Position numbers and translations under genes: made by a program. Positions 10,959-20,885 of a stretch of DNA of 64,000 bases are shown piece by piece. Source of the DNA: Dechloromonas hankyongensis. Lineage in GTDB: Bacteria > Pseudomonadota > Gammaproteobacteria > Burkholderiales > Rhodocyclaceae. Under the pieces are notes generated by a model. That model made no database searches. It saw only the letters and a list, made by a program, of their open reading frames with translations, and had not been told where the DNA came from. Every line of letters starts with the position of its first letter. The stretch's first letter is position 1. The stretch lies in the NCBI RefSeq assembly GCF_022012295.1, contig NZ_JAKLTN010000001.1, positions 1,240,001 through 1,304,000 on the forward strand, given 5' to 3'.

Positions 10959-10970
10959 TCGGGAAACCGA
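10959..10970. promoter_or_regulatory. Upstream activator site 1 for gltI (TCGG-N4-CCGA)
   Basis: Perfect inverted repeat TCGG-GAAA-CCGA, centred about 136 bp before the predicted sigma-54 start of gltI. The same core recurs 31 bp downstream and upstream of ansB. From memory, AauR of Pseudomonas putida was reported to bind a TTCGG-N4-CCGAA element, which this core resembles. Confidence 0.6.
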
Positions 10971-10989
10971 TGGCTGTAGGAGCGCGCTG

Positions 10990-11001
10990 TCGGAAAACCG
11001 A
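10990..11001. promoter_or_regulatory. Upstream activator site 2 for gltI (TCGG-N4-CCGA)
   Basis: Perfect inverted repeat TCGG-AAAA-CCGA, 31 bp (about three helical turns) from site 1 and so on the same DNA face. It is centred about 105 bp upstream of the predicted start. This is the usual enhancer geometry for an NtrC-family activator such as the one encoded at 16869-18182. Confidence 0.62.
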
Positions 11002-11075
11002 CGGTTGGCTTCGTTTTTTGCCATTAAATCTTTTTAAAAACAGCTGCTTATGACGACTTTCGTTTCCGTTGTTCT

Positions 11076-11091
11076 TGGCATGGCATGTGCG
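11076..11091 (+). promoter_or_regulatory. Sigma-54 promoter of gltIJKL
   Basis: TGGCATGGCATGTGCG matches the -24/-12 consensus TGGCACG-N4-TTGCW. The invariant GG is at 11077-11078 and GC at 11089-11090, exactly 12 bp apart. The predicted start is near 11101, leaving a 43-nt leader before gltI. Confidence 0.72.
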
Positions 11092-11144
11092 TATGATGAA
11101 GCAACGTAGCCGAGGGCGGCTTCGCATTTGAGGAGACCTATAAA

Positions 11145-12032
11145 ATGAAACGCATCGTTATCGCCGCTGCCGTATTGGCAGCCTGCTCCGCCTCCGCCAT
11201 GGCGCAGGAGTCCCAGACCCTGAAGAAGATCAAGGACGCCGGCAGCATCACGCTGGGCCATCGCGAATCCTCGATTCCCTTTTCCTACTATGACGACAAG
11301 CAGCAGGTCATCGGCTATTCGCAGGAGTTGATGCTGAAGGTGGTCGATGCGATCAAGAGCGAGCTCAAGCTGGCCAAGCTCGACACCAAGCTGATGCCGG
11401 TCACCTCCGCCAATCGCATCACGCTGGTGCAGAACGGCACTGTCGATATCGAGTGCGGCTCGACGACCAACAACACCGAACGCCAGAAGCAAGTCGCCTT
11501 CTCGACCAGCATTTTCGTCATCGGCACCAAGCTGATGACCAAGAAGGATTCCGGCATCAAGGACTTCCCCGATCTGGCCGGCAAGAACGTCGTGACCACC
11601 GCCGGTACGACGTCGGAGCGCCTGATCCGCAAGATGAACGAAGACAAGCAGATGAAGATGAACGTGATTTCCGCCAAGGATCACGGCGAATCCTTCCTGA
11701 CGCTGGAAACCGGCCGTGCGGTCGCCTTCATGATGGACGATGCGCTGCTCTACGGCGAAATGGCCAAGGCCAAGAAGCCGGGCGACTGGGCGGTGGTCGG
11801 TGCGGCCCAGTCGAAAGAAGCCTATGGCTGCATGCTGCGCAAGGACGATCCGGGTTTCAAGAAGGTGGTCGATGCCGCGCTGACCAAGGCGCTGACTTCC
11901 GGCGACGCCGAAAAGATCTACGCCAAGTGGTTTCTCAATCCGATCCCGCCCAAGGGCCTGAACCTCAACATGCCGCTCTCCGACGACATGAAGGCCTTGA
12001 TGAAGGCTCCGAACGACAAGGCTTTCGAGTAA
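11145..12032 (+). CDS. gltI: Glutamate/aspartate ABC transporter, periplasmic binding protein
   Basis: A 295-residue family-3 solute-binding protein. The signal peptide covers residues 1-20 (cleavage AMA|QE). The mature protein starts with LKKIKDAGSITLGHRESSIPFSYYDD, the N-terminal block of GltI/AatJ-type acidic amino acid binders. GSTTNNTERQ and the hinge GTTSERLIRKMNE also match. It captures Glu/Asp in the periplasm for GltJK. It is first in gltI-gltJ-gltK-gltL and has a strong sigma-54 promoter and activator sites. A stable stem-loop follows its stop codon, as often seen after the abundant binding protein of ABC operons. Confidence 0.93.
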   Translation: MKRIVIAAAVLAACSASAMAQESQTLKKIKDAGSITLGHRESSIPFSYYDDKQQVIGYSQELMLKVVDAIKSELKLAKLDTKLMPVTSANRITLVQNGTVDIECGSTTNNTERQKQVAFSTSIFVIGTKLMTKKDSGIKDFPDLAGKNVVTTAGTTSERLIRKMNEDKQMKMNVISAKDHGESFLTLETGRAVAFMMDDALLYGEMAKAKKPGDWAVVGAAQSKEAYGCMLRKDDPGFKKVVDAALTKALTSGDAEKIYAKWFLNPIPPKGLNLNMPLSDDMKALMKAPNDKAFE

Positions 12033-12044
12033 TTCCGGCGCATT

Positions 12045-12065
12045 CCGGGGTGCCCGGCACCCCGG
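12045..12065 (+). other. Intercistronic stem-loop after gltI
   Basis: CCGGGGTGCC and GGCACCCCGG form a perfect 10-bp inverted repeat with one base between (realistically an 8-bp stem with a 5-nt loop). There is no T run, so it is unlikely to terminate. It would stabilise the gltI message and lower gltJK expression relative to the binding protein. Confidence 0.6.
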
Positions 12066-12092
12066 GGTGAAACTTCGGGAAAGGGGGTAAGC

Positions 12093-12830
12093 ATGAGCTA
12101 CCAATGGAATTGGGGCGTCTTCCTGCAGCCGTCGGCTTCGGGTGACGACACCTATCTGGGCTGGATGTTCGCCGGCTTCAAAATGACCATCGCGCTGTCC
12201 TTGACCGCCTGGGTCCTGGCGCTGCTGCTCGGCGCGCTGGTCGGCGTCCTGCGCACGGTGCCGAACAAGACGCTGGCCGGCATCGCCACGGCGTATGTCG
12301 AGCTGTTCCGCAACGTGCCGCTGCTGGTGCAACTGTTCATCTGGTATTTCGTGCTGCCCGAACTGTTGCCGGCCAGTATCGGCAATGCCTTCAAGCAGGC
12401 CAACCCGGTGTTGCAGCAGTTCCTCGCCTCGGTGGTCTGCCTCGGTCTGTTCACCAGCGCCCGGGTCGCCGAACAGGTACGCGCCGGCATCAACTCGCTG
12501 CCCAGGGGGCAGAAGAATGCCGGTCTGGCGCTTGGCTTCACGCTGCCGCAGACCTACCGCTTCGTGATGCTGCCGATGGCCTTCCGCCTGGTCGTCCCGC
12601 CGCTGACTTCGGAATTTCTCAATATCTTCAAGAATTCCGCCGTCTGCTCGACCATCGGCCTGCTCGAACTGGCCGCCCAGGGCCGTCAGCTGGTCGATTA
12701 CACCGCCCAGCCCTACGAATCCTTCATTGCCGTGACGCTGTCCTACATCATCATCAACGTCACCGTGATGACTCTGATGCACCGCTTCGAGAAGCGCATC
12801 GCGGTGCCTGGCTATATCGGAGGGAAGTGA
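12093..12830 (+). CDS. gltJ: Glutamate/aspartate ABC transporter permease GltJ
   Basis: A 245-residue inner-membrane permease of the HisMQ family. It has about five hydrophobic segments and the conserved cytoplasmic EAA-like loop around [28 protein letters not shown], which docks on the ATPase. The N-terminus [10 protein letters not shown] is typical of GltJ. It pairs with GltK, which starts two bases after this stop. A good ribosome site (GGAAAGGGGG) lies 8 nt before the start. Confidence 0.93.
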
Positions 12831-19458: not shown

Positions 19459-19547
19459 GTGCTTGATCCTTATTCTCGGAATGAATGCCTCCCTGCCGGC
19501 AGCGAAGCGCTGCAGCATGTGCGGTCGGGCAGGGGAGCTTGCGCTCA

Positions 19548-19567
19548 GGCCGGCATCACGGCCGGCC
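19548..19567. other. Inverted repeat between ansB and porin
   Basis: GGCCGG and CCGGCC arms enclose 8 bases, 45 bp after the ansB stop. There is no T run. It could be a processing or weak termination site within an ansB-porin transcript. Confidence 0.3.
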
Positions 19568-19612
19568 CGGGCGATCTAGTGTTTGCTAGTGGGGTGAGGC
19601 AGGGGCGGGAAC

Positions 19613-20680
19613 TCAGTATTCCCAGAAAATGCGCTGCAGTTCCTTGCTGTCGCTGGTCTTGGTCAGCGCTACAGCGGCCAGGATGCGTGCCTTCTGCGGG
19701 TTCAGGTCGTGGGCGACGATCCAGTCGTACTTGTCGTCCGGCTGTTCGGCATTGCGCACGACGAAGCCGCCGGCATTGACGTGCGATGAGCGGATGATCT
19801 GCACGCCCTTGCCGCGCAGTTCGCGCAGGGCGGGGACGACGCGGTTGCTCACCGAGCCGTTGCCGGTGCCGGCGTGGATGATGGCCTTGGCGCCCTTGTC
19901 GGCAAAGGCGCGATAGGCGGTGTCGTTGGCATTGCCCTGGCCGTAGGCGATTTCGACCAGCGGCAGGCTGGCGATCTTGTCGATGTCGAATTCGGAATTG
20001 ACCGTATGGCGCTTGGCCGGCAGGCGGAACCAGTAGTTCTTGCCTTCGACCACCATGCCGAGCGGGCCCCACGGGCTCTTGAAGGCTTCGGTCTTGATGT
20101 TGATCATCTTGGCAACGTCGCGGCCGCTGTTCAGTTCGTCGTTCATGGCGACCAGTACGCCCTTGCCGCGGGCATCCTGGCTGGCGGCCACGCTCACCGC
20201 GTTGAACAGGTTGAGCATGCCGTCGGCCGACATGGCGGTGCCCGGGCGCATCGAGCCGACGACCACGATGGGCTTGTCGCTATGCACGACCAGGTTCAGG
20301 AAGTAGGCGGTTTCCTCGAGGGTATCGGTGCCGTGGGTGACGACGATGCCGTCCACGTCGCCTTGCTTGGAGAGGGCGGCAACGCGCTTGGCGAGGGCGA
20401 GCAACTGCTCGTTGGCCAAGCTTTCGGAAGCGATCTGAAAAACCTGCTCGCCGCGTACGCTGGCCACCTTGGCCAATTCGGGGACGCCGGCAATCAGTTT
20501 GTCGACCGGCACCTTGGCGGCCTGGTAGGTGGCGCTGTTGGTCGCTTCGGCGCCGGCGCCGGCAATGGTGCCGCCGGTGGCCAGGATGACGACGTTGGGC
20601 AGCCCGGCCCAGGCGGCGACGGATGCGAGCAGGCCGGCGGCGACGAGCAGGCAACGGGAAAGCTTGCGGTTCAGGTTCAT
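19613..20680 (-). CDS. ansB: Periplasmic L-asparaginase/glutaminase (type II)
   Basis: A 355-residue type II amidohydrolase with a signal peptide cleaved after AWA (residue 25). The two catalytic Thr motifs are intact: ATGGTIAG with T38 and [14 protein letters not shown] with T118-D119, plus the flexible-loop Tyr52. It hydrolyses Asn and probably Gln to Asp/Glu plus ammonia in the periplasm; GltIJKL can then import the products. The start follows MNLNRKLSR at 20680, just downstream of the ribosome site AAGGAGA, although the frame stays open upstream. A sigma-54 promoter and two activator sites precede it. Confidence 0.93.
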
Positions 20681-20736
20681 TGAGTCTCCTTGTTGATCTG
20701 AGTGGAAACCGGAGGTCGGTTCCGTGCCATCTGCAT

Positions 20737-20752
20737 TGCACGTGGCGTGCCA
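20737..20752 (-). promoter_or_regulatory. Sigma-54 promoter of ansB
   Basis: Reverse strand TGGCACGCCACGTGCA matches TGGCACG-N4-TTGCW at all but one defined position. The -24 GG and -12 GC are 12 bp apart. The predicted start is near 20726, giving a ~46-nt leader before ansB. Confidence 0.8.
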
Positions 20753-20841
20753 GCCGAGGCGGGCAGATCGGAGACGCGTCAAGTCATTGATTTGACGGGG
20801 CAGGGTGGCCGAGCCTTCGGCCATGCTCCGGTGATGAGCTG

Positions 20842-20853
20842 TCGGTGTGCCGT
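20842..20853. promoter_or_regulatory. Upstream activator site for ansB, proximal (one mismatch)
   Basis: TCGG-TGTG-CCGT matches TCGG-N4-CCGA at 7 of 8 defined bases. It is centred about 121 bp upstream of the predicted ansB start and 32 bp from the distal site, mirroring the 31-bp spacing at gltI. Confidence 0.5.
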
Positions 20854-20873
20854 GGGAGCGCTGCCCCACGGCC

Positions 20874-20885
20874 TCGGGTTTCCGA
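20874..20885. promoter_or_regulatory. Upstream activator site for ansB, distal (perfect)
   Basis: TCGG-GTTT-CCGA is a perfect core inverted repeat, about 153 bp upstream of the predicted ansB start. It lies between ansB and the 3' end of the convergently unrelated glycosyltransferase gene. Confidence 0.6.

Follow-up and report, generated by a model that had tools for sequence, protein, structure and literature searches.

The window analysed here, a 64,000-nucleotide stretch of the Dechloromonas hankyongensis genome (contig NZ_JAKLTN010000001.1, positions 1,240,001 to 1,304,000), holds a candidate acidic amino acid regulon of the AauS/AauR type. Its forward-strand genes begin with gltI (11145–12032), encoding a Glu/Asp binding protein (NF008063, above cut-off), followed by the permease genes gltJ (12093–12830; assigned by order and family) and gltK (12832–13512; NF011687, above cut-off) and by gltL (13535–14263), whose ATP-binding product was identified by family search. 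A MarC-family membrane protein gene (14287–14931; family search) lies between gltL and an aauS-like kinase gene (14956–16872) and is retained there in many relatives. The kinase was likewise assigned by family search, and its dCache sensor domain, related to that of DctB, resembles solved DctB sensors. The next gene, aauR-like (16869–18182, forward strand), encodes the sigma-54 activator R1, with receiver, AAA+ and HTH_8 domains and Arg424 as the first residue of its recognition helix. Since gltIJKL-marC-aauSR are co-directional with gaps of at most 60 bp, the regulator genes are probably within the operon that they activate. On the reverse strand, ansB (19613–20680) encodes a type II asparaginase (TIGR00520, above cut-off), probably exported, as judged by eye from its signal peptide, and a porin gene (18280–19458; Porin_4) lies downstream of it. 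R1 is the only sigma-54 activator in the window, as the earlier note on this DNA had held, among 26 matches in the genome (21 strong, 5 weak); rpoN has two matches (G000:C1:396146 and G000:C10:154887).

Both gltI and ansB are preceded by a sigma-54 element and two regulator boxes of the form TCGG-N4-CCGA, to which no strand is assigned. At gltI, box 1 (TCGGGAAACCGA, 10959–10970), which is kept across the genus, and box 2 (TCGGAAAACCGA, 10990–11001) are perfect and start 31 bp apart, and the sigma-54 element (TGGCATGGCATGTGCG, 11076–11091, forward strand) has the correct GG-N10-GC. At ansB, box 1 (20874–20885) is perfect and 32 bp from box 2 (20842–20853), which has one mismatch; the sigma-54 element (TGGCACGCCACGTGCA, 20737–20752, reverse strand) also has GG-N10-GC, with one mismatch. 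These coordinates, box spacings and mismatch counts agree in full with the earlier note, but its placement of the boxes 100–155 bp upstream has to be corrected: they lie about 75–133 bp before the −24 element, which is 144–205 bp before the start codons. Each promoter also has a site resembling that of integration host factor (IHF). The one before gltI (AAACAGCTGCTTA, 11038–11050, forward strand) has two mismatches to WATCAANNNNTTR, which we take to be the IHF consensus, and is in the same register as the good sites that relatives have; the one before ansB (AATCAATGACTTG, 20780–20792, reverse strand) is perfect. By eye, an inverted repeat, CCGTGGG...CCCCACGG (20850–20871), is visible between and partly inside the two ansB boxes.

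Within the window, the single box is not enriched (3 perfect boxes against 2.62 expected by chance, all three in the gltI and ansB promoters), nor are sigma-54-like sites with at most two mismatches (28 found, 34 expected), and Rfam gave no match. The pair is near-unique in the 4.1-Mb genome, which was scanned with mismatches at spacings of 31 and 32 bp. At 31 bp, the single perfect pair is that of gltI and no other pair has fewer than two mismatches; at 32 bp, two pairs have one mismatch, that of ansB and one before aspA (G000:C1:1031949). Twelve of 13 further two-mismatch pairs lack a sigma-54 element (at most three mismatches) at 30–130 bp, and the remaining one has an element with two mismatches and lies within an open frame. 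Pairs with up to three mismatches number 72 (spacing 31) and 64 (spacing 32) genome-wide; the reversed pattern gave 44 and 48. Genome-wide, TGGC-N8-TGC 60–121 bp after an exact box was found at gltI, ansB, aspA, a chemoreceptor gene and four other places, these four within open frames of at least 200 codons; the reversed-pattern control gave 0 and 2. The earlier note had proposed a genome-wide scan, with chance frequency as the outcome that would tell against it, and paired boxes with a sigma-54 element proved far from that frequency.

The presence of the sites is tied to the presence of the regulator across the genus. Forty genomes were sampled, and the 29 gltI-like genes found were examined for two boxes spaced 31–33 bp, with at most two mismatches in all, plus a GG-N10-GC element. 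Pair and element precede the main gltI in all 19 genomes with the regulator, namely 18 with R1 and G006. The latter was counted among the R1 genomes because its contig breaks off within a kinase gene of the R1 type, and its treatment as an exception, a pair without a regulator, was dropped for that reason. The pair is absent before gltI in all four genomes counted as lacking R1 and before all six extra gltI copies in R1 genomes. One of these four, G024, in which R1 may have been missed, has one box and no sigma-54 element; leaving out G006 and G024, the contrast is 18/18 versus 0/3. Regulator and gltI are on separate contigs in two genomes (G020 and G061). The sequence between the conserved gltI elements diverges among the 19 genomes, and box 2 is separated from TGG by 73–76 bp in 18 promoters and by 66 bp in one. 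In G063, the trpE-gltIJKL-glycosyltransferase synteny persists but no longer includes marC-aauSR-porin-ansB, and the gltI boxes and promoter GG were lost as well.

Where ansB and the porin gene form a separate unit (five genomes), ansB is preceded in 5/5 by a sigma-54 element of its own and by a pair spaced 32 bp, and the porin gene lies downstream of ansB in 5/5. Where ansB is inside gltI-ansB-gltJKL (nine genomes), no pair with at most three mismatches precedes it (0/9; one had only 96 bp upstream). Upstream of the porin gene, in the one genome checked, neither a pair nor a sigma-54 element was found (at most two mismatches), which together with its position 3′ of ansB suggests that the porin is co-regulated with ansB.

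The IHF-like sites are also over-represented. A perfect WATCAANNNNTTR lies between box 2 and the promoter in 15 of 43 promoters (the set omits the G003 aspA), compared with 0.055 expected from shuffles that preserved single-base, not dinucleotide, composition; with at most one mismatch, the figures are 31 of 43 and 1.96. Among those 31, the site is 25–27 bp before TGG in 13/15 gltI and 5/5 ansB promoters and 15–16 bp before TGG in 9/9 aspA sites.

We consider an AauS/AauR-type acidic amino acid regulon, in which the kinase and R1 switch on gltI and ansB via matched sites, to be the best explanation, with a probability of roughly 85%. On sensing, outside the inner membrane, an acidic amino acid or a compound akin to one, the DctB-like kinase would phosphorylate R1, which would then bind the two boxes, spaced about three helical turns. 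IHF would bend the DNA between boxes and promoter, and the AAA+ domain of R1 would enable sigma-54 RNA polymerase to open the gltI and ansB promoters. The expected products are a periplasmic amidase, a Glu/Asp importer and probably the porin, whose gene may be co-transcribed with ansB. Positive feedback is predicted, since the kinase and activator genes lie last in the operon that they would induce, presumably on one transcript; the earlier note does not mention this position. Shared control of gltIJKL and ansB is a well-supported prediction, given the gene content, the regulator tree described below, the footprint and the loss of sites without the regulator. On the same grounds, the AauS/AauR assignment and the joint gltIJKL/ansB control put forward in the earlier note find good support.

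Several points weigh against this reading. The gltI sigma-54 element is poor, with three mismatches to TGGCACN5TTGCW, and the gltI IHF-like site, with two, is poor as well. The ansB boxes hold three mismatches in all in 3/5 separate-unit genomes, and within the gltI coding sequence of G029 and G031, ahead of the internal ansB, there are two boxes 33 bp apart with two mismatches each. One of the genomes taken to lack R1, G024, has a completeness of 89% and a contig that stops 1.1 kb past gltL; related genomes are, moreover, non-independent observations. The outer bases of the gltI and ansB boxes deviate from the published AauR consensus, TTCGG-N4-CCGAA (PMC7962211, in its accessible part). Finally, an activator 61% identical to R1, the paralog R2, is found beside boxes like those of R1.

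The R2 locus lies 219 kb away, at L032:6960-16165 (G000:C1:1024959-1034164), where the gene order is aspA, an SDF-family symporter gene (dctA/gltP type), a TauE-family gene, a dCache kinase gene and R2. The aspA identity follows from TIGR00839 (above cut-off), and the highest-scoring models for the symporter are those of DctA, at scores below cut-off. The pair at G000:C1:1031949 and a sigma-54 element with one mismatch lie upstream of aspA, and the chemoreceptor gene (mcp) at this locus carries its own boxes and sigma-54 element. The earlier note had called the window regulon complete, which it is not in this sense: the same module adjoins this second AauS/AauR-like pair, and the window activator is therefore not the sole candidate for such boxes. 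In the tree, R1, R2 and the Pseudomonas viridiflava regulator fall together, apart from DctD-like types (support 94/80), with Pseudomonas AauR represented by one locus recognised by its gltIJKL-kinase-activator order. The R2 pair probably drives aspA-symporter and the chemoreceptor gene via the same promoter module, which adds aspA, the symporter and the chemoreceptor as candidate targets of that module.

The aspA sites were compared in 29 of 31 matches (a partial gene in G007 and the second G022 copy were left out). Among the 19 closest (identity at least 89%), the sigma-54 element is present in 19/19 and the pair (at most three mismatches) in 18/19, the other contig being cut at 97 bp. Pair and element occur together in 0/10 more distant aspA genes, four of them inside glt operons. 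The aspA gene stands among glt genes in four genomes, in a place like that of a glutamate dehydrogenase gene (ELFV family) seen between gltL and aauS in G006 (L222:1124-2425). In G002, G012 and G028, aspA-symporter-TauE adjoins ansB-porin in the R1 locus, and R1 was the only one of the two regulators found among the 29 best candidates scored per genome (G012 is 85% and G028 74% complete).

The two sets of boxes differ at the outermost half-site base. T occupies this base in 0/96 cases at gltI/ansB (45 G, 35 A, 16 C) and in 46/64 at aspA/mcp in genomes with R2, counts in which R1 is one branch and orthologous sites are non-independent. Box 1 has outer T..A in 0/24 at gltI/ansB versus 15/16 at aspA/mcp with R2, or 16/16 if the G030 aspA, scored on a shifted pair, is read with the GTTCGGATTTCCGAAC that its sequence also contains. 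In the three genomes with only R1 found, which are close kin, aspA box 1 has outer T..A in 0/3. Box 1 of the P. viridiflava gltI is TTCGGTTTTCCGAA. Ten plasmid loci were read among 25 listed of 85 records; five alphaproteobacterial plasmid loci have outer T..A in 10/10 boxes and regulators with Lys (four loci by script, Sinorhizobium mexicanum by eye), and five of the ten gave no pair by script (L242, L247, L248, L249 and L251; L242 and L247 were also viewed by eye). The recognition helices of R1 and R2 are near-identical, with Arg as the first residue in R1 (18/18 genomes read) and Lys in R2 (16/16); a Pseudomonas AauR has Lys where R1 has Arg424. The R1 Arg aligns with Fis Arg85, which contacts guanines at ±7 (PMC4784862, accessible part). 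The Arg/Lys difference is a possible specificity switch.

We tentatively suggest, at less than even odds, that AauR was duplicated or separately acquired and that R1, via Lys to Arg, came to prefer a purine (mostly G) in place of T at the outermost base. This would have given two insulated circuits, gltIJKL and ansB-porin versus aspA-symporter and the chemoreceptor gene, with an otherwise identical module. Two lineages run counter to a simple rule of Lys reading T. The Variovorax regulator, which has Lys and is the sister of R1 in the tree, is accompanied by ACGG/GCGG-N4-CCGT boxes at a spacing of 31 bp, of which one carries outer G..C; a sigma-54 element follows 46 bp beyond the pair. In Vitreoscilla, where the residue is again Lys, outer T..A is seen in one box and G..C in another (by eye). 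The plasmid pVF1 of Vitreoscilla filiformis carries a binding protein-ansB-gltIJKL-kinase-activator locus (L242:1638-10341), and inspection by eye shows repeats resembling the boxes, a sigma-54-like element and an IHF-like site ahead of its first gene. An activator with 58.5% identity to R1 was also noticed on a Pseudomonas aeruginosa plasmid (NZ_CP133752.1, 50177-51496). If the divergence reading is true, the genus offers a compact natural case of paralogous sigma-54 activator divergence, involving a single candidate residue and a single operator base, in genomes that have one of the regulators or both.

Alternatively, R1 and R2 could both bind all four promoters, so that the window promoters would be nodes of a shared network, not private to R1. 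The core box, pair spacing and module common to gltI, ansB, aspA and mcp are consistent with this, as are the near-identical helices and the retention of the aspA pair in G002, G012 and G028, in which no R2 was found. However, the gltI/ansB and aspA/mcp sets are sharply distinct in their outer box bases, and G063 has R2, not R1, and a gltI without the pair; we rate a shared network as rather unlikely. It is more improbable still that the kinase answers C4-dicarboxylates and that the locus is mainly a dicarboxylate switch also covering acidic amino acids. The match of the sensor domain to solved DctB sensors and the below-cut-off DctA scores of the R2-locus symporter would fit such a switch, but what the window pair would control is a Glu/Asp importer plus an amidase, and Pseudomonas AauR is linked to glutamate use in the accessible part of PMC7962211. 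An origin of the boxes as non-functional matches, by chance or in repeat elements, was rejected as very improbable, since a single box does occur at chance frequency in the window but the pair is near-unique in the genome, further pairs mostly lack a sigma-54 element, and the sites are conserved in 19 genomes amid diverging intervening sequence and absent where the regulator is absent.

The AauS/AauR-type regulon that we favour extends a Pseudomonas nutrient regulon to another genus, with comparative support sufficient to predict targets from sequence. The original P. putida AauS/AauR paper is reportedly that of Sonawane from 2006. The literature consulted includes parts of PMC7962211, PMC7386598, PMC4784862 and PMC8281045. 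Neither paired AauR paralogs nor aspA as a member of an AauS/AauR regulon turned up in the literature searched, which mostly excluded subscription papers. A contig scan gave an arbitrary sample of at least 80 loci, of which 26 were examined and one is an AauR-type Pseudomonas locus with a box pair; a class-wide search of 370 genomes, with at most four candidates per genome at a strict limit, has no bearing on distribution.

The DctB/DctD C4-dicarboxylate system has the same kinase sensor type and activator architecture as the window pair. Compared with it, the window activator falls on a branch separate from that of R3-type regulators, and its recognition helix and targets are different. R1 falls outside the branch with the PKKTLYDKL-type recognition helix that would mark DctD, into which R3 of this genome (C8:1339031), presumably DctD itself, does fit. 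The aspA-symporter-kinase-activator loci of Azospirillum and Sinorhizobium plasmids match the R2 locus in gene set and box module; their boxes have outer T..A, their sigma-54 element is perfect or near-perfect, and no gltI, ansB or porin gene lies alongside; they resemble R2, not R1.

The closest likeness is to AauS/AauR with aatJ-aatQMP of P. putida KT2440 and P. aeruginosa PAO1, where, according to the accessible part of PMC7962211, a DctB-type kinase and a sigma-54 activator likewise neighbour a Glu/Asp ABC importer, a −24/−12 promoter is preceded by two boxes whose core is CGG-N4-CCG, and ansB is a proposed target. In the window, too, a membrane kinase adjoins an activator with receiver, AAA+ sigma-54 and Fis-type HTH domains, a Glu/Asp ABC importer is linked to a periplasmic glutaminase/asparaginase gene (the glutaminase activity is predicted), and two boxes about 32 bp apart lie upstream of a sigma-54 element. 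The PAO1 box positions in that part of PMC7962211 would fit the spacing of the window pairs, and the P. viridiflava locus has, like the window, a pair 32 bp apart, a sigma-54 element and an IHF-like site before gltIJKL. Of the full box TTCGG-N4-CCGAA, the core TCGG-N4-CCGA is present at gltI and ansB and the outer T..A is absent, so we call the regulon AauS/AauR-type, a variant. It further differs from Pseudomonas AauS/AauR in that the R1 recognition helix starts with Arg, not Lys, that ansB forms a separate unit with the porin gene, that a MarC-family gene is in the operon, and that the genome holds a second AauS/AauR-like pair linked to aspA. Very probably, an AauS/AauR-type switch of the kind already known from Pseudomonas operates here; the genome also holds a diverged second copy, and the sites linked to that copy differ at one base.

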